The position numbers were made by a program, and so were the translations under genes. A stretch of 59,563 bases of DNA, taken from contig JAHEKP010000008.1 of the NCBI GenBank assembly GCA_024638285.1, positions 1 through 59,563 of the forward strand, read 5' to 3'. Of this stretch, positions 6,948 to 54,956 are shown one piece after another (position 1 is the first letter of the stretch; every line of letters starts with the position of its first letter). Under the pieces are notes generated by a model. It ran no database searches. It was not told the origin of the DNA and saw only the letters and a program-made list of their open reading frames with translations. The DNA is from Cryomorphaceae bacterium. GTDB lineage: Bacteria > Bacteroidota > Bacteroidia > Flavobacteriales > Schleiferiaceae.

Positions 6948-7514
6948 TTATTGGACGGCTATTACTAACGGGGCTAGTTCAAGGCCACAAAGGTACAAAA
7001 TCGCGTAAACTCTAGTTCCAATTGTCTTAAAAACAACGAATCCTGGTTGTTTCACAGCGAAATAGACCATTCCGAGTACATGAAAGAAGAAAAATGCATA
7101 CCGACCGCTATCTTCTGATACGTAACCTGTGAGTGATAACAACAAGAGAAAGGCAGCTGTAAAGGCATACCAAAGTGATAATAAGGCAGTCATGGGTCCT
7201 AGTTTCCAAACTGCCCGAACACCTTCCTCTTTAAGTAGTAAATGGATCAAAAATGAAAAGGAAAAACGCAAAAAGAGCAGTGAGGGTATGGCTAACAGTA
7301 GCACGGGATGCGCTTGGTAGCCTGCGAAGTATAGGCTAATGGCTCCAAAAACAGCCATGGAGACCCAGAGAAAAATCTGGGTACTTATATTAAGCGGGTG
7401 TTCAGAAATGCCATTTAAATCGGCCCTTACCCAACGTTTAAAAAAAGTAGGTTGAGTCACGCGTAGAACTGCGAGAACTGCAAGTAGTGCAATAAAAATC
7501 CATTTTGTGCCCAT
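6948..7514 (-). CDS. DUF4271 family integral membrane protein
   Basis: A 188-residue inner-membrane protein with about 6 hydrophobic helices and the C-terminal motif YAILYLCGLELAPL that I recognise from the Bacteroidota DUF4271 family. The function is unknown. In Bacteroidota it is commonly found just before hemD, as here (7-nt gap), which hints at an envelope or tetrapyrrole-linked role, but this is inference from neighbourhood only. A TAACTTTG box lies 7 nt before its start codon and overlaps the stop codon of the preceding T9SS protein gene, so the DUF4271-hemD pair probably has its own promoter and a very short leader. Confidence 0.8.
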   Translation of the reverse strand: MGTKWIFIALLAVLAVLRVTQPTFFKRWVRADLNGISEHPLNISTQIFLWVSMAVFGAISLYFAGYQAHPVLLLAIPSLLFLRFSFSFLIHLLLKEEGVRAVWKLGPMTALLSLWYAFTAAFLLLLSLTGYVSEDSGRYAFFFFHVLGMVYFAVKQPGFVVFKTIGTRVYAILYLCGLELAPLVIAVQ

Positions 7515-7521
7515 CTGGGCG

Positions 7522-7529
7522 CAAAGTTA
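7522..7529 (-). promoter_or_regulatory. Predicted -7 box for DUF4271-hemD
   Basis: TAACTTTG read on the minus strand is an exact TAnnTTTG match. Seven nucleotides separate it from the DUF4271 ATG (7514), so the mRNA would have almost no leader. The box includes the TAA stop of the upstream gene. No convincing -33 element was found. Confidence 0.5.
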
Positions 7530-13936: not shown

Positions 13937-16900
13937 ATGAAAAGAGTTTACCTCCTTTTACTTTCAACCGCTTTCGCTTTACCACTTTCAGCACGTGAGG
14001 TGCAAGGCGCGAACAAGACCACTCAAACAACGGGATCTATGAAGACCGTTGAAGAATTGTGTCAGCCTTCAAAAGCGCAAAGTGATTTAAGTATTAATAA
14101 TGTTCGCGCAACCATTCTGGGTGGTGGTGATATGTGGTGGGATTTAAATACCGCGCGCTACGAAGTACCCAAAGGATCTAACAAGCATTCGATGTTCGCA
14201 GGTTCGTTGTGGCTTGGTGGTGTTGATGAGGGTAACCAATTAAAGTTGGCTGCCATGACCTATCGTCAGGCGGGTAACGATTACTGGCCAGGTCCACTAA
14301 CTAGTGACGGTACAGCATCTACGAACAAAGAAATTTGTGATAAATACGACCGTCACTGGATTATATACCGTGAGGAAGTAGATATTCACAAAGCATGGTT
14401 GGAATGTTTAGACGATCCCAACTGTGACGAGACTGAATTATTTCCGGGTTATGAAAGTCAAATACCTGAATCAATCAAGGATTGGCCAGGAAACGGTGTA
14501 GATGGTGAATTACCTTATCAATTGGCTCCATTTATTGATCGTGACGGTGACGGCGTCTACGATTACCTTGTAGACTATCCGGCTTACGACATTGATAAGG
14601 AGTATGACTGCCGCGATAAAGAAACGGATGTACTCTATGGTGATCAAACCATCTGGTGGGTATACAACGACCGTGGAAACGTGCACACGGAATCACAAGC
14701 TGGAGCGCTGGGTTTTGAAATTCGTGCTCAAGCGTTCGCTTTCTCGACGAATGATGAGGTGAACAATATGACGTTCAACAACTACCGCATCATTAACCGT
14801 TCGACATTCCGCTTGACCAACACTTATTTCTCTACTTGGTTTGATCCAGATTTAGGTAACTATACTGATGATATCATCGGTTGTGATATTGCACGTGGTC
14901 TTGGCTATTGTTATAATTCAGATACGGAAGATGAAGGTCCTTTGGGTTATGGTTTGAACCCTCCGGCTGTTGGGTTTGACTTTTTCCAAGGTCCATTCGC
15001 AGATTACTATGACGGTATTGATAACGATCGCGACGGTTGTGTGGATGGTGTAAAAGATCCAGAAACAGGATTGTGTGTGGCTGAAGATCCAGCTACAGGT
15101 GTGAACGAACGTATTATCATGAGTCATTTCATGTACTACAACAACACCGCTTCAAACATCTCTGGTAACCCAGATAACGCAACACATTTCTACAACTATA
15201 TGCGTGCGCTATGGAAAAACGGTTCAGAGTTAATTATTGAAACTCCTTCAGGTCCAGGTGATCAAGGGAATGGTGACGGTTTTGTTGCATCAGGTAATGG
15301 TACTTCAACACAGTTTGCTTACCCAGGAATGTCTTACGATACTACGGGAGCATATCCTCCATATGCACCGGTCAACTGGTGGGAAAGTCCAGCCAACAAA
15401 GAGGATAAGCGCGGATTGCACAGTGCAGGTCCATTCTCATTGGCACCGGGTGCATTAAACTTTGTAACGACTGGAGTAGTTTGGGAGCGTGATCTTATTA
15501 ATAATGATTTGTTCGCTTCTGTAGAGAAGGTAATTATTGCTGATGATAAAGCGCAGAAACTTTTTGATAACTGTTTCCAAGTATTGAATGGTCCGGATGC
15601 TCCGGATGTTGAAATTCAGGAATTGGACCGTGAACTTATTTTGAAGTTAACGTACGGACCGGGTAGTAATAATGAAGCATTCAGCTACCGTGAGCGTGAT
15701 CCGCTTATTACTGTTAGTCCGGACGATCGTGACTCTATTTTAAATGTAAACCCAGATTATTTCGACTATAAATTTGAAGGGTTCCAGATATTCCAATTAT
15801 CGAACAGCGATGTAAGTATTTCAGATATTTACGATCCAACACAAAGTCGTTTGGTAGCGCAGTGTGATGTCAAAAATGGGATCACCCAGTTGATCAATTG
15901 GGAGGTAGATCCAGATTTGAATGCCCTTGTGCCACAAGACATGACGCTAACTACGAATAACAGCGGGGTATTTACATCGTTCCAAGTGCGTGAAGATGTC
16001 TTTGCTACAGGAGATCGTTCGTTGATCAACCACAAGGAATACTACTTCACGATCATTGCATACGGTCAAAACCAATATGAAGTGTTCAACCCTACTATTG
16101 CTCCGGGTGGTCAAAAAATACCATTCTTAGCGGGTCGTCGTAACATTAAGACCTATACGGCTATTCCACATCAGATTGATTCAGAAAAGGGCGGTACTAT
16201 TCAGGTTGCGCAGTACGGTGATGGTCCGGAAATCACACGATTGGATGGTGTGGGTAACGGCGGAGGTGAGTTAGAACTGACCTTAACAGAAGTAAAAGAC
16301 ATCATGGACGGCAACGGCTCGGGCCAACCTACCTACATGGGCGGTTTAGGACCAGTAGCTATAAAAGTGGTTGATCCGTTGGAAGTGAAGAATGGAGAAT
16401 ATACCCTGACTCTTGATGGATCTAGTGGAAATGCGCAGTGGGAAATCACAGATGGAAGTGGTGCAGTGATAGCAACTGCGGATACGACCATATCTTTCTA
16501 CAATGAGCAAATTATTCCTGAATTGGGCTTATCGGTTGCAATGCAACAGGCACCAGCACCGGGAGGTGACGACGAAGGAACGTATGATAACGGTGTTATC
16601 TTCTCTGAAATCATCTATGAGGATCCATCAAAAGAATGGTGGTCAGGTATTGCTGATGATAAGAGCTATACTCCATACAACTGGATTCTCGCGGGTACGA
16701 ACAGTTTCCCAACAGAAGAGCCTGCAACATTATATCCAGATCAAGATGGTGATGCAAAAGGCTATTTTGAGAATATCGTAGATGGAACTTGGGGACCGTA
16801 TATGTATGCATCGGCAAACAACCGTTCTACTGTAAATGGTTTCAATAACTACGGTATGGGTCCTGCCCAGAGTATCGGTAGGAATTTAAATGATGCTTCT

Positions 16901-19028: not shown

Positions 19029-19036
19029 TAACTTTG
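19029..19036 (+). promoter_or_regulatory. Predicted -7 box upstream of greA
   Basis: TAACTTTG, an exact TAnnTTTG match, 13 nt after the PorV-like stop. Transcription would begin near 19042, just before the hairpin at 19047-19065. Confidence 0.45.
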
Positions 19037-24317: not shown

Positions 24318-24348
24318 TTCGCTAGGTCCTCTTTGCACCTTATATTTG
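24318..24348 (+). promoter_or_regulatory. Promoter of pdhB
   Basis: TTCG (24318-24321), a 19-nt spacer and TATATTTG (24341-24348), an exact -7 match. The same TTCG-N19-TATATTTG arrangement stands before hppA. The leader to the ATG at 24370 would be about 15 nt. The box rules out an in-frame TTG at 24346 as start codon. Confidence 0.6.
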
Positions 24349-29574: not shown

Positions 29575-29582
29575 TAACTTTG
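29575..29582 (+). promoter_or_regulatory. Predicted -7 box for the membrane protein-hflX-maeB operon
   Basis: TAACTTTG, exact TAnnTTTG, 16 nt before the ATG at 29599 in the 51-bp divergent gap. No clear -33 element. Confidence 0.45.
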
Positions 29583-36651: not shown

Positions 36652-36659
36652 TACATTTG
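36652..36659 (+). promoter_or_regulatory. Predicted -7 box for the mannosyltransferase operon
   Basis: TACATTTG, exact TAnnTTTG, ends 4 nt before the ATG at 36664. Transcription would start at or within a few bases of the start codon, suggesting a leaderless mRNA. Confidence 0.5.
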
Positions 36660-36663
36660 CTGC

Positions 36664-37386
36664 ATGTCACGCGCATTAGTCATTATACCTACATACAACG
36701 AGATTGAAAACATCGAAAAGATGCTGAACACCGTTATGGCTTTGCCCGGCGGTTACGAAGTATTGATTGTTGATGACGGCTCTCCGGACGGAACGGCGGA
36801 CGTGGTGCGTAATTTAATGGATGTACACGGGGCTCGCATTCACCTCGAGGAACGTACGGGTAAACTTGGTTTAGGAACGGCCTATATCCATGGTTTTAAA
36901 TGGGCTCTGGCGCGTGAATATGACTACGTCTTTGAAATGGATTGTGATTTCTCTCATAACCCTAAGGATTTACCTAGATTGTTGGCGGCATGTGAGCATG
37001 GCGCTGATGTAAGTATAGGCTCGCGTTACGTTCAAGGAGTAAATGTGGTGAATTGGCCCATGAGCAGAGTATTATTGAGCTATTTCGCTTCTGTTTATGT
37101 TCGTTTCATTACTGGAATGCCAATCCAAGACGCAACTGCTGGTTTTAAATGCTATAAGCGTGGAACTTTAGCTGTAATTGACTTTTCAAAAATCCATTTT
37201 GTGGGTTACGCTTTCCAGATTGAAATGAAATTTACCGCTTGGCGCAAAGGACTCGTGGTTAAGGAAGTGCCGGTCATTTTTACCGACCGTACAGAAGGGA
37301 CCAGCAAAATGTCTAGCGGCATCATCAAAGAAGCCATTTTTGGTGTTATAAAATTGAAAATTTGGAGTTGGTTCACCAAACCCTAA
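36664..37386 (+). CDS. Polyprenol monophosphomannose synthase (GT2 family)
   Basis: A 240-residue dolichyl/polyprenyl-phosphate mannosyltransferase-like GT2 enzyme that loads a sugar from a nucleotide donor onto a lipid phosphate on the cytoplasmic face. Seen: ALVIIPTYNEIENI, VLIVDDGSPDGTADVV (donor binding), FEMDCDFSHNP (DxD-type metal site), IGSRYVQGVNVVNWP, QDATAGFKCYKR and FTDRTEGTSKMS. There is no C-terminal membrane domain, as in the short bacterial forms. It heads a run with dihydroorotase (18-nt gap), a DUF4296 protein and a DUF2141 protein. Confidence 0.92.
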   Translation: MSRALVIIPTYNEIENIEKMLNTVMALPGGYEVLIVDDGSPDGTADVVRNLMDVHGARIHLEERTGKLGLGTAYIHGFKWALAREYDYVFEMDCDFSHNPKDLPRLLAACEHGADVSIGSRYVQGVNVVNWPMSRVLLSYFASVYVRFITGMPIQDATAGFKCYKRGTLAVIDFSKIHFVGYAFQIEMKFTAWRKGLVVKEVPVIFTDRTEGTSKMSSGIIKEAIFGVIKLKIWSWFTKP

Positions 37387-39532: not shown

Positions 39533-40303
39533 CTCTTCTAGGAAGTCAACTACTATAGATGAGAACGTTTCCCGGGCTTCTGCATGTACCCAATGCCCTG
39601 CATTTGCAATGGTTTCAATATGCGCCGCAGGGAAATGATCGACTATTGCATCTTCGTCTTCCGCTGTAATGTAGCCGCTTGCACCGCCTGCGATGAATAT
39701 AGTAGGACGATCAAAGTAGCCAAACTCCAAAGGTGTTCCTACTTCATGTAGTTGGTCTTCGAGGGCATCTAAGTTGAATCGGAACGCCAATTTCTCTTTA
39801 GTCTGCCAGTATAAACTCTTCAGAAAAAATTGGCGAATGCCCGCGTTATCAACGCTTTTTGCAAGAATCGCATCTACTGTACTGCGCGATTCAATGGCAT
39901 CAAAATCTACCGACTTCATCGCATTTATATAGCCTTGATGGTGAATGGGATAAGCTTTTGGTGCTATATCTACAACGACTAAGGCCCGCACGCGTTCCGG
40001 CCGACTCACGGCAAAGTGCATGGCGGTTTTTCCGCCCATGCTGTGGCCTAAGATGACGGCTGTATTTAATCCCTTTGCATCCATGTATGCTTCTAGATCG
40101 GCAGCCATTGCATCGTAGTTATGGACGCGATGATGCGGAGACTTTCCATGGTTGCGCTGGTCCAGAGCATGCACTTGCCATCCTAATTCTGCCCAATGTT
40201 TTGCATGCGTCGCCCAGTTGTCCCCCATGCCAAACAACCCATGAAGGATGATCAGTGGTGCGCCTTCTCCGTAGACTTTAGAGAACAATGGTACTACTTC
40301 CAT
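39524..40303 (-). CDS. Alpha/beta hydrolase (YbfF-like esterase)
   Basis: A 259-residue cytosolic alpha/beta-fold hydrolase. Seen: [21 protein letters not shown] with the oxyanion [14 protein letters not shown], the nucleophile elbow [10 protein letters not shown] (Ser about residue 92), the acid in [15 protein letters not shown], and the catalytic His in [10 protein letters not shown]. The sequence pattern is that of acyl-CoA esterase/YbfF proteins; the substrate is unknown. Its start overlaps the pdxJ stop by 10 nt (pdxJ is upstream on the same strand), so the two are coupled. Confidence 0.88.
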
Positions 40304-41034
40304 GCGGATGGGTTTAAACAGTTTCTGTATTGCTGAATGGTATTGTGGAGCCCTAAATAAAGTGCATCAGCAATCAATGCGTGACCAATGCTCACTTCGT
40401 CCAAATTTCCGTGAAGCTTCTGAGCGAAGAAGCTGAGGTTTTCTAAACTGAGATCGTGACCGGCGTTTACACCTAGGCCAATACTTTTCGCATAGGCTGC
40501 ACTGCTTACAAAAGGCGCAACTGCAGCCGCGCTATCTTTAGCATAACCTACGGCATAGGATTCTGTATACAATTCTATACGATCTGTACCGGTAGCTTTT
40601 GCTGCGGCAATCTGCTTGTGATCGGTTTCTATAAAAATAGATGTGCGAATTCCTGCATCTTTAAAGGTTGCGATCACCTCGGTCAAGAGTTCTTTGTGTT
40701 GCATAGCGTCCCATCCTGCATTTGAAGTTAAAACACCAGGGGGGTCGGGGACCAGCGTGACTTGTGCGGGTCGATTAGTGAGCACGAGCGCGATAAATTC
40801 TTTATTGGGATACCCTTCAATGTTGAACTCTGTGTTCACTGCAGGAGCTAAATCTGCTACATCGCTGTAGCGAATGTGACGCTGATCGGGTCTCGGGTGG
40901 ACAGTAATGCCTTCCGCGCCAAACCGCTCACAATCAAGTGCAACTTTCAAGATATTTGGGACATCGCCGCCTCTTGCATTGCGAAGGGTAGCAATTTTAT
41001 TGATATTAACGCTGAGTTTTGTGTGATCGTTCAT
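40294..41034 (-). CDS. pdxJ: Pyridoxine 5'-phosphate synthase
   Basis: A 246-residue PdxJ, a TIM-barrel enzyme that joins deoxyxylulose 5-phosphate with 3-amino-2-oxopropyl phosphate in the DXP-dependent vitamin B6 pathway. Seen: [18 protein letters not shown] at the N-terminus, [57 protein letters not shown], and [12 protein letters not shown] plus [14 protein letters not shown]. The ATG at 41034 matches the family start; in-frame starts further upstream are rejected because they run into the divergent CBS gene's control region. A TAGCTTTG box lies 5 nt before the ATG. Confidence 0.95.
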
Positions 41035-41039
41035 GTGGG

Positions 41040-41047
41040 CAAAGCTA
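41040..41047 (-). promoter_or_regulatory. Predicted -7 box of pdxJ
   Basis: TAGCTTTG on the minus strand, exact TAnnTTTG, with only 5 nt to the pdxJ ATG (41034). It lies back to back with the CBS gene's box in a 39-bp intergenic region. Confidence 0.5.
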
Positions 41048-41058
41048 AAGAAAAGGGC

Positions 41059-41066
41059 TATGTTTG
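41059..41066 (+). promoter_or_regulatory. Predicted -7 box of the CBS-nadK-porG-uppS-bamA operon
   Basis: TATGTTTG, exact TAnnTTTG, 7 nt before the ATG at 41074. No convincing -33 element. The mRNA leader would be 0-3 nt. Confidence 0.5.
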
Positions 41067-41073
41067 TTATGAA

Positions 41074-41742
41074 ATGTTCCAAGAAACACTACATACAGAA
41101 CCTATTAAAGGAATTCTTCCTCAAACAACCATTGCAGAGGCTTTGGAGTTCATGGTGGATCTAAAAATCAGCCACCTTCCCGTGGTTTCGAATGATGGCA
41201 TTTATAGGGGACTTTTGAGTGAAGATGCACTTTATGAAGCCGAAGATGATACGCAGTTCGTTCAAAGCGCTTTGCGGGCTGCTTTCGTCCCTCATGTACT
41301 ATCGGGCGCTCATTTTTTCGAGGTCATGGAAGTTTGTACGCAGTACCGTATCACATTAGTTCCCGTAGTGACGAAGGAAGGACACTACATTAATTCCTAT
41401 GTACTTTCTGATATTTTAGAATGCTTTAGAGCCACACCTACATTGCTTCAAGCGGGTGCCATCCTGGTGGTTAACATTACAGCGGACCAGTACAGTTTAA
41501 TAGAAATTGCCCATGCTGTTGAACATAATGACGCCAAGCTTTTAGGGTTGTGGATGACCCACAAGGCAGCAGAAACCTCTGTGCAATTGACGTTAAAGAT
41601 TAACTTAGAGCATACTGCGCCCATTGTCAAGAGTTTACAACGCTACGGCTACGAAATAGAAGGTATCTTTGGCGATGAATCGTACGAAGCCGATTACCGC
41701 GAACGATACGACCATTTAATGAACTATTTGAAGTACTCATGA
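41074..41742 (+). CDS. CBS domain pair protein with ACT-like C-terminal domain
   Basis: A 222-residue protein with two CBS motifs (about 1-130: [33 protein letters not shown], then [11 protein letters not shown] and [13 protein letters not shown]) and a C-terminal ACT-like segment (about 135-210: [21 protein letters not shown], then LLGLWMTH, then [11 protein letters not shown]). CBS pairs bind adenosine nucleotides such as AMP, ATP or NAD(P); ACT domains usually bind amino acids. No catalytic domain is attached, so it is a stand-alone regulator candidate. It overlaps nadK by 4 nt (ATGA) and diverges from pdxJ. The start at 41074 is chosen because of the promoter box and domain onset. Confidence 0.82.
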
Positions 41743-47753: not shown

Positions 47754-47790
47754 AAAGCCCCCCGCGAGCGCAGCTCGCGGGGGGCTTTTT
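47754..47790 (+). terminator. Intrinsic terminator of the nadK-bamA-skp operon
   Basis: A 16-bp stem (47754-47769 / 47773-47788) with a GCA loop and T-run to 47790. It is one of the two strongest hairpins in the window. It lies between the second skp gene and murI. Confidence 0.92.
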
Positions 47791-47809
47791 ATTTGGTATT
47801 TTGCGTGCT

Positions 47810-48589
47810 GTGAAGAAGCAACGCAAAATAGGGTTATTCGACAGCGGCTTGGGCGGGCTTACAGTCCTGCATGCGCTGCAGGAGAAACTACCTGGTGTCG
47901 ATAAAGTATACTTTGGTGATACGCTTCATTTACCGTACGGTGATAAAAGCGACGAAGCCATTCGAAGTTTTAGTCTTCAAATTGTAGGGTTCTTAGCGGC
48001 TCAAGGTTGCGATGTGATTGTCATTGCTTGCAATAGTGCAAGTGCAGCGGCCGGTTCTATGCTAGAGGAATCCTTTCCTGACTTGACCTTTATCAATGTC
48101 ATTGACCCTGTAGTGGCGGCATTGGCCGGAAGTCCTCCACGAAAAACAGCTTTGCTGGGCACGCGCGCGACTGTGCGAAGCGGTGCCTACACAAAACGCT
48201 TAGAAGCGCGCAAAGTGCCGCATGAATTAGTTGCATTACCCACACCTTTACTGGTGCCGCTGATTGAAGATGGATTTTTAGGCACTGGAATAGAGGAACG
48301 TGTGCTCGAGCACTATTTGAAAGATCCTTCTATGAATGGGATTGAAGCTATAGTTCCAGGCTGTACACATTATCCACTTCTGCGTGAGGTAGCCGCGAAG
48401 TTACGCCCCGGTGTGGATTGGATTGATGCACCCGCTATAGTAGCAGAGGCCGTAGTTTCGGCGTGGGATGGTGCTGTTGAAGGTGTAGGTACCACGACGT
48501 ATTATTTAAGTGATGCCACGCCCAGTTTCCTAGTATTGGCATCCAATACCTTTGGTATCAAAGCGAATTGGGAAAAAAAAGTACTTTAA
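47810..48589 (+). CDS. murI: Glutamate racemase
   Basis: A 259-residue cofactor-independent racemase supplying D-glutamate for peptidoglycan. Catalytic cysteines are in IACNSASAAA (about 70) and VPGCTHYPLL (about 185), with the N-terminal IGLFDSGLGGLTVL loop. The GTG at 47810 is chosen; an in-frame TTG at 47801 lies inside a TATTTTG promoter-like box that starts 7 nt after the preceding terminator, so it is unlikely to initiate. If that box is real, the mRNA has almost no leader. The 3' end overlaps the convergent holin-like gene by 4 nt. Confidence 0.93.
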   Translation: MKKQRKIGLFDSGLGGLTVLHALQEKLPGVDKVYFGDTLHLPYGDKSDEAIRSFSLQIVGFLAAQGCDVIVIACNSASAAAGSMLEESFPDLTFINVIDPVVAALAGSPPRKTALLGTRATVRSGAYTKRLEARKVPHELVALPTPLLVPLIEDGFLGTGIEERVLEHYLKDPSMNGIEAIVPGCTHYPLLREVAAKLRPGVDWIDAPAIVAEAVVSAWDGAVEGVGTTTYYLSDATPSFLVLASNTFGIKANWEKKVL

Positions 48590-54948: not shown

Positions 54949-54956
54949 CAAAGGTA
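54949..54956 (-). promoter_or_regulatory. Predicted -7 box of the pseudouridine synthase gene
   Basis: TACCTTTG on the minus strand, exact TAnnTTTG, 17 nt before the ATG at 54931. No clear -33 element. Confidence 0.45.

Follow-up and report, generated by a model that had tools for sequence, protein, structure and literature searches.

The window, that is, the whole stretch of 59,563 nucleotides analysed here, is contig 62 of the 85 contigs of a Cryomorphaceae genome of 1.71 Mb that is 91% complete; its source is taken to be an uncultured bacterium of the order Flavobacteriales. Five of its genes are preceded at a short distance by the octamer TAnnTTTG or by a near match (Table 1): a family 2 glycosyltransferase gene (here the mannosyltransferase gene), the divergent pdxJ and CBS-domain genes, a DUF4271-like gene and murI. 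A preliminary description of this DNA had pointed to these five starts, had remarked that Shine-Dalgarno-like sequences were missing and had proposed that leaderless initiation is common in the organism. All five boxes were confirmed, as was the lack of Shine-Dalgarno-like sequences: none of GGAG, AGGA and GAGG occurred within 22 nt upstream of any of the five starts. In the genome sample described below, Shine-Dalgarno-like 5-mers were depleted at -20 to -5 (6 of 431 genes) relative to -60 to -45 (17 of 431).

Table 1. Boxes and genes considered in the window, with four boxes of the leadered class for contrast
Feature	Position	Strand	Remarks
-7 box TACATTTG of mannosyltransferase-like gene	36652..36659	+	4 nt (CTGC) before ATG 36664; predicted leader 0
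Family 2 glycosyltransferase gene (mannosyltransferase of the preliminary description)	36664..37386	+	ATG start; PF00535, 105 bits; homologues align from residue 1
-7 box TAGCTTTG of pdxJ	41040..41047	-	5 nt before ATG; predicted leader 0-1
pdxJ	40294..41034	-	PF03740, 299 bits
-7 box TATGTTTG of CBS gene	41059..41066	+	7 nt before ATG; predicted leader ~3
CBS-domain gene	41074..41742	+	PF00571, 44 bits
Box TAACTTTG before DUF4271-like gene	7522..7529	-	7 nt to ATG 7514; the preceding gene ends with the TAA of the box
DUF4271-like gene	6948..7514	-	PF14093, 26.0 bits, under the Pfam cut-off of 29.7
TATTTTG before murI	47797..47803	+	6 nt before GTG 47810; one base short of TAnnTTTG
murI	47810..48589	+	GTG start; PF01177, 57 bits
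Box TAACTTTG, leadered class	29575..29582	+	16 nt before ATG 29599
Box TAACTTTG, leadered class	19029..19036	+	20 nt before ATG 19057
Box TATATTTG, leadered class	24341..24348	+	21 nt before ATG 24370
Box TACCTTTG, leadered class	54949..54956	-	17 nt before ATG 54931

The octamer was not enriched across the window as a whole (43 occurrences on both strands, 49.7 expected); what was enriched instead was its position before starts, a box lying 4-8 nt before ATG in 4 of the 50 ATG ORFs where about 0.16 would be expected. The same position was examined in a genome sample of 500 kb (29% of the genome), consisting of the window and 25 further stretches, contiguous and non-random. Genes in the sample were ORFs called mechanically from the first ATG with a minimum length of 80 codons (n = 431), and the gap from TAnnTTTG to the ATG was measured. 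The ORF-based counts, here and in other genomes, refer to ATG starts and strict TAnnTTTG boxes only, and in comparisons across genomes related species were counted separately except where they were clustered. The controls for the sample were 200 shuffles of each upstream region and the reversed pattern. The box was found 4-8 nt before ATG in 17 of the 431 genes (3.9%), while the shuffles gave a mean of 1.4 and a maximum of 6, a positional enrichment of about 12-fold; the reversed pattern occurred once at this distance. At 15-40 nt, 52 of the 431 genes had a box (shuffles: mean 6.8, maximum 14). The distances were two-peaked, with 17 boxes at 4-8 nt, 3 at 9-14 nt and 54 at 15-40 nt, the last being three times as many as the first. 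The near boxes made up 17 of the 74 strict boxes at 4-40 nt (23%, 95% interval 14-34%), and the window was richer in them (4 of 9) than the rest of the sample (13 of 65, 20%).

Whole-genome counts of TAHHTTTG-Nx-ATG, compared with the reversed pattern, gave 37 versus 13 at N4, 31 versus 14 at N5, 12 versus 14 at N13 and 24 versus 17 at N19, and the literal TANNTTTG-N5-ATG was found 39 times versus 23. The preliminary description had made its proposal depend on an excess above chance across the genome, and such an excess was present, by ORFs in 29% of the genome and by pattern in all of it. The same two peaks were seen in 1944 genes from loci of other Bacteroidota, where 80 boxes lay at 4-8 nt, 22 at 9-14 nt and 10-20 per position at 15-22 nt, the control giving about 1 per position. 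Leaders of about 5-10 nt are accordingly best described as under-represented: thinned, not absent.

TAnnTTTG is the -7 promoter element that the primary sigma factor of Bacteroidota recognizes, and it has been described in three species (PMC6847099, PMC9723704, PMC7366714). At probable promoters of Flavobacterium johnsoniae, the transcription start follows the box at a distance of 4 or 5 nt (PMC6847099). If this distance applies here, no leader is predicted for a spacing of 4-5 nt, one of about 3-4 nt for a spacing of 7-8 nt, and one of at least 11 nt for boxes in the second peak; the CBS and DUF4271 genes, both with 7 nt, would have leaders of about 3 nt. The reading that we favor, at a probability of roughly 0.78, is that the near TAnnTTTG is a -7 promoter element and that leaderless or near-leaderless mRNAs are a minority mode beside leadered genes. 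The housekeeping sigma factor would read the box as its -7 element; where 4-5 nt lie between box and ATG, transcription would begin on the A of the ATG or one base away from it and give an mRNA without a leader, and with the box at 7-8 nt a leader of about 3-4 nt would be made. Ribosomes that ignore Shine-Dalgarno sequences would then recognize the 5'-terminal AUG with the initiator tRNA. Bacteroidota ribosomes are reported to hide the anti-Shine-Dalgarno tail (PMC10783764, PMC9976891). About a quarter of the strict boxes at 4-40 nt would belong to this mode, and the box of leadered genes would stand at least 15 nt away. For boxes at 4-5 nt, leaderless or near-leaderless transcription appears to be the best reading, given the box-to-start distance in F. 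johnsoniae, the two-peaked spacing, the conservation and, at one gene, the exclusive use of ATG.

That gene is the mannosyltransferase gene. All 10 genomes of the genus, the source genome included, have its box at 4-6 nt with varying spacer letters; the box stands at 4-10 nt in all six loci of genus g12, at 9-10 nt in all three of genus g14, and at 4-5 nt in Pontibacter, Rufibacter and Hymenobacter. The encoded protein is 82% identical to its counterpart in Flavobacteriales bacterium UBA3477, and another genome of the window's genus, G184, shares with UBA3477 an identical run of 62 bases upstream of the gene. A table of starts was compiled for 108 of the 110 loci, with ATG preferred where several starts were possible; at least two species appear twice in it (L021/L193 and L022/L200, identical in upstream sequence). 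Where the box was near (4-10 nt), ATG was the start in all 31 orthologues, versus 30 of the 45 with a distant box (p = 2e-4) and 10 of the 32 without a strict box. When the sequences were clustered at 72% identity, the contrast was 6 of 6 versus 7 of 17 (p = 0.019).

The pdxJ box was examined in 30 loci. All 10 genomes of the genus had it at 5 nt; of the 20 loci from other genera, 10 had it at 5-7 nt and 6 at 18-29 nt, and 4 had none. For the CBS gene, all 10 genomes of the genus had the box 7 nt ahead of the first ATG; of 16 loci from other genera, 12 had it at 8-12 nt and 3 at 16-17 nt, and 1 lacked it. The spacing of the CBS box in these other genera lies within the 9-14 nt zone that is thinned elsewhere.

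The principal alternative, which we consider unlikely, is that the near boxes are promoters but that the protein is made mainly from longer transcripts, either from another promoter upstream or from the upstream mRNA with reinitiation. Sixteen of the near boxes could be classified by context, and 6 preceded co-directional genes less than 40 nt from their neighbour, of which there were 185 in all; for these six, co-transcription could also be envisaged. In addition, the DUF4271 box, intact as TAnnTTTG in 7 of 9 orthologues, shares bases with the stop codon of the preceding gene, which lies 12 nt before the DUF4271 start; ribosomes may get to DUF4271 by reinitiating after that gene, which leaves it an ambiguous example. 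Against this explanation, the other 10 of the 16 were at likely heads of transcription units, 7 of them divergent. Moreover, pdxJ and the CBS gene diverge (41034-41074) with 39 bp between their start codons, and an upstream promoter would have little room outside the other gene. Since their two -7 boxes are 11 bp apart on opposite strands, the putative promoters overlap, an arrangement that all 10 genomes of the genus share. Locus L031 (3944-16279; S3_Bin71) contains two genes with a box 5 nt before ATG and complementary upstream sequence, one starting near 16280 on the plus strand and the other on the minus strand, which on its letters looks like another divergent overlapping pair. Among the five cases of the preliminary description, the mannosyltransferase gene and pdxJ stand as strong candidates for a leaderless start and the CBS gene as one for a near-leaderless start; DUF4271 can be read either way, and the murI box is of a different kind.

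It is a good deal less probable that the starts were miscalled, so that the true start codon lies downstream and has an ordinary leader. The ORFs were indeed called mechanically from the first ATG, but the mannosyltransferase and PdxJ proteins align with their homologues from the first residues, and no further ATG lies between the called start and the conserved core.

Slightly less credible again is the notion that the box recruits ribosomes as an element of the mRNA rather than acting as a promoter. It has the position of a ribosome-binding site, and Shine-Dalgarno sites are lacking. However, the box is a described promoter element, and it was enriched 15-40 nt upstream as well, followed by similar letters: in both the near and the distant class C or T came first and A was often second. 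These letter counts, and those for A at -3, include about 20 kb of AH-716-K08 twice. In favor of the main reading, A at -3, a signal of leadered genes, was present in 206 of 408 leadered genes versus 10 of 34 genes at spacing 5-6 (p = 0.02); on the other side, it was present in 23 of 48 at spacing 4, where -3 coincides with the second position behind the box. A further point against the main reading is that no clear motif was seen for a separate -33 element (TTTG), TTG being present at -37 to -27 in 14 of 70 near boxes and 78 of 325 distant ones, counted without a shuffled control; the -33 element is also weak in F. johnsoniae (PMC6847099). Chance matches picked out by eye, an idea that the unremarkable total of octamers in the window would suit, are contradicted by the position-specific counts and by the conservation, and can be set aside.

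The near boxes can be compared with two known systems. They resemble the Bacteroidota sigma-A promoter in the six conserved letters, in the C or T and then A after the box and in their location before starts; they differ in that the share at 4-8 nt is larger here (17 of 74) than in F. cauense, where it was 2 of 39 strict boxes (5%). They resemble the leaderless genes surveyed in PMC3160421 in having a promoter box at a fixed short distance from the start codon, but the box is TAnnTTTG and not Pribnow-like. That survey described a TA-like box about 10-12 bp before the start and found more than 20% of genes leaderless in Actinobacteria and Deinococcus-Thermus; its search was for Pribnow-like boxes, and its account allows that Bacteroidetes were possibly underestimated, yet considers high hidden shares unlikely. 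Leaderless starts are rare in the phylum according to published work. Up to 10 nt was found for 13% of the 5' UTRs of F. johnsoniae and more for 87% (PMC6847099), under 10 nt for about 3.7% of those of B. thetaiotaomicron, and a leaderless or short-leader start for 5.5% of 890 mapped CDSs of F. psychrophilum (PMC9723704), all with denominators that differ from those of the present counts; the F. cauense share is close to the F. psychrophilum value.

The near share varied among relatives. It was 2 of 20 in Parabacteroides gordonii and 9 of 100 in 30 named Bacteroidales loci; the source genome outside the window differed from F. cauense (p = 0.043) and from F. cauense, P. gordonii and the Bacteroidales pooled (p = 0.019). 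Higher values were found in G155 of the same family (14 of 31), G069 (11 of 31), S3_Bin71 (7 of 18) and AH-716-K08 (6 of 15), and lower ones in G113 (5 of 33), K_DeepCast (G344; 4 of 26) and G112 (4 of 23). These seven relatives (G155, G112, G069, G113, G305, G309 and G344), picked for high counts after the whole-genome N4 counts were made, gave 51 of 177 when pooled (29%), and the four highest (G155, G069, G305 and G309), grouped after the result was known, 38 of 95 (40%). The N4 counts, run on 296 genomes, were also uneven, with 80 versus 6 reversed in G155, 65 versus 52 in F. cauense and, in family f3, 64 versus 74 in G120 and 74 versus 75 in G282. The claim that leaderless initiation is common therefore needs to be divided: the near boxes are real, but in the source genome they precede a small percentage of ATG genes and form a solid minority beside the threefold more numerous boxes at 15-40 nt, while "common" may be a fair word for some relatives.

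A wider proposal, on which we would put about even odds, is that Bacteroidota use leaderless initiation to a substantial extent, which differs between lineages and has been missed so far. Its share would range from less than 10% of the strict boxes of some genera to 30-45% of those of several lineages with small genomes; some lineages would use GUG starts in addition to AUG, and leaders of about 5-10 nt would be avoided. It would have been missed because Pribnow-type boxes were what surveys sought and because Flavobacterium and Bacteroides were the genera in which RNA ends were mapped. No report of lineage-dependent leaderless shares in Bacteroidota was recognized among the matches listed, which were mostly without subscription journals.

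Counts of TAHHTTTG-N4-GTG versus the reversed pattern in three genomes of the same family were 24 versus 4 (G155), 16 versus 0 (G112) and 19 versus 2 (G260), which suggests leaderless GUG starts in these sister genera and not in the source genome; the excess implies that ATG is not required everywhere. In the whole genome of G011 (family f11), there was no N4 peak (14 versus 47 reversed) and an excess at N13 (33 versus 6), in the zone thinned elsewhere.

Two candidate causes of the uneven shares were rejected. Loss of ribosomal protein bS21 did not account for them: the protein is present in 38 of 40 genomes, being absent from the source genome, which is 91% complete, and from G152, and all four congeners searched have it. 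Genome streamlining was considered over 160 of the 296 genomes and 86 of the 92 genera, those left out being mostly extra members of large genera. The N4 excess per Mb correlated with genome size over genera (Spearman -0.57, whether family f15 was included or not). For the absolute excess the coefficient was only -0.15, and since that excess does not fall with genome size the trend per Mb is possibly just an effect of density.

These results bear on how Bacteroidota ribosomes choose start codons. If part of the genes are leaderless and the share differs by lineage, orthologous pairs with a near box and ATG on one side and a distant box and GTG or TTG on the other offer a natural way to test the requirements of the ribosome. 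Start codons in uncultured relatives would also be easier to call with the spacing rule.

The near match before murI holds as far as TATTTTG 6 nt before GTG is concerned, but TATTTTGC fits TAnnTTGY and not TAnnTTTG, and GTG at N4 showed no clear excess in the whole source genome (13 versus 10). Of the 10 genomes of the genus, 7 had TATTTTG 6-9 nt ahead of the murI start, the next letter being C in 6 and G in 1. In fitting TAnnTTGY it is like the SM5 motif of F. psychrophilum (PMC9723704); unlike that motif, it is a single site here, and one of the seven members with TATTTTG has G next. A terminator-like hairpin, rich in GC and with a T run behind it, was recognized by eye at 47757-47796. It directly adjoins the murI box, so that one transcript seems to end very close to where the next one begins. 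GC-rich inverted repeats were also seen by eye upstream of murI in several genomes of the genus.
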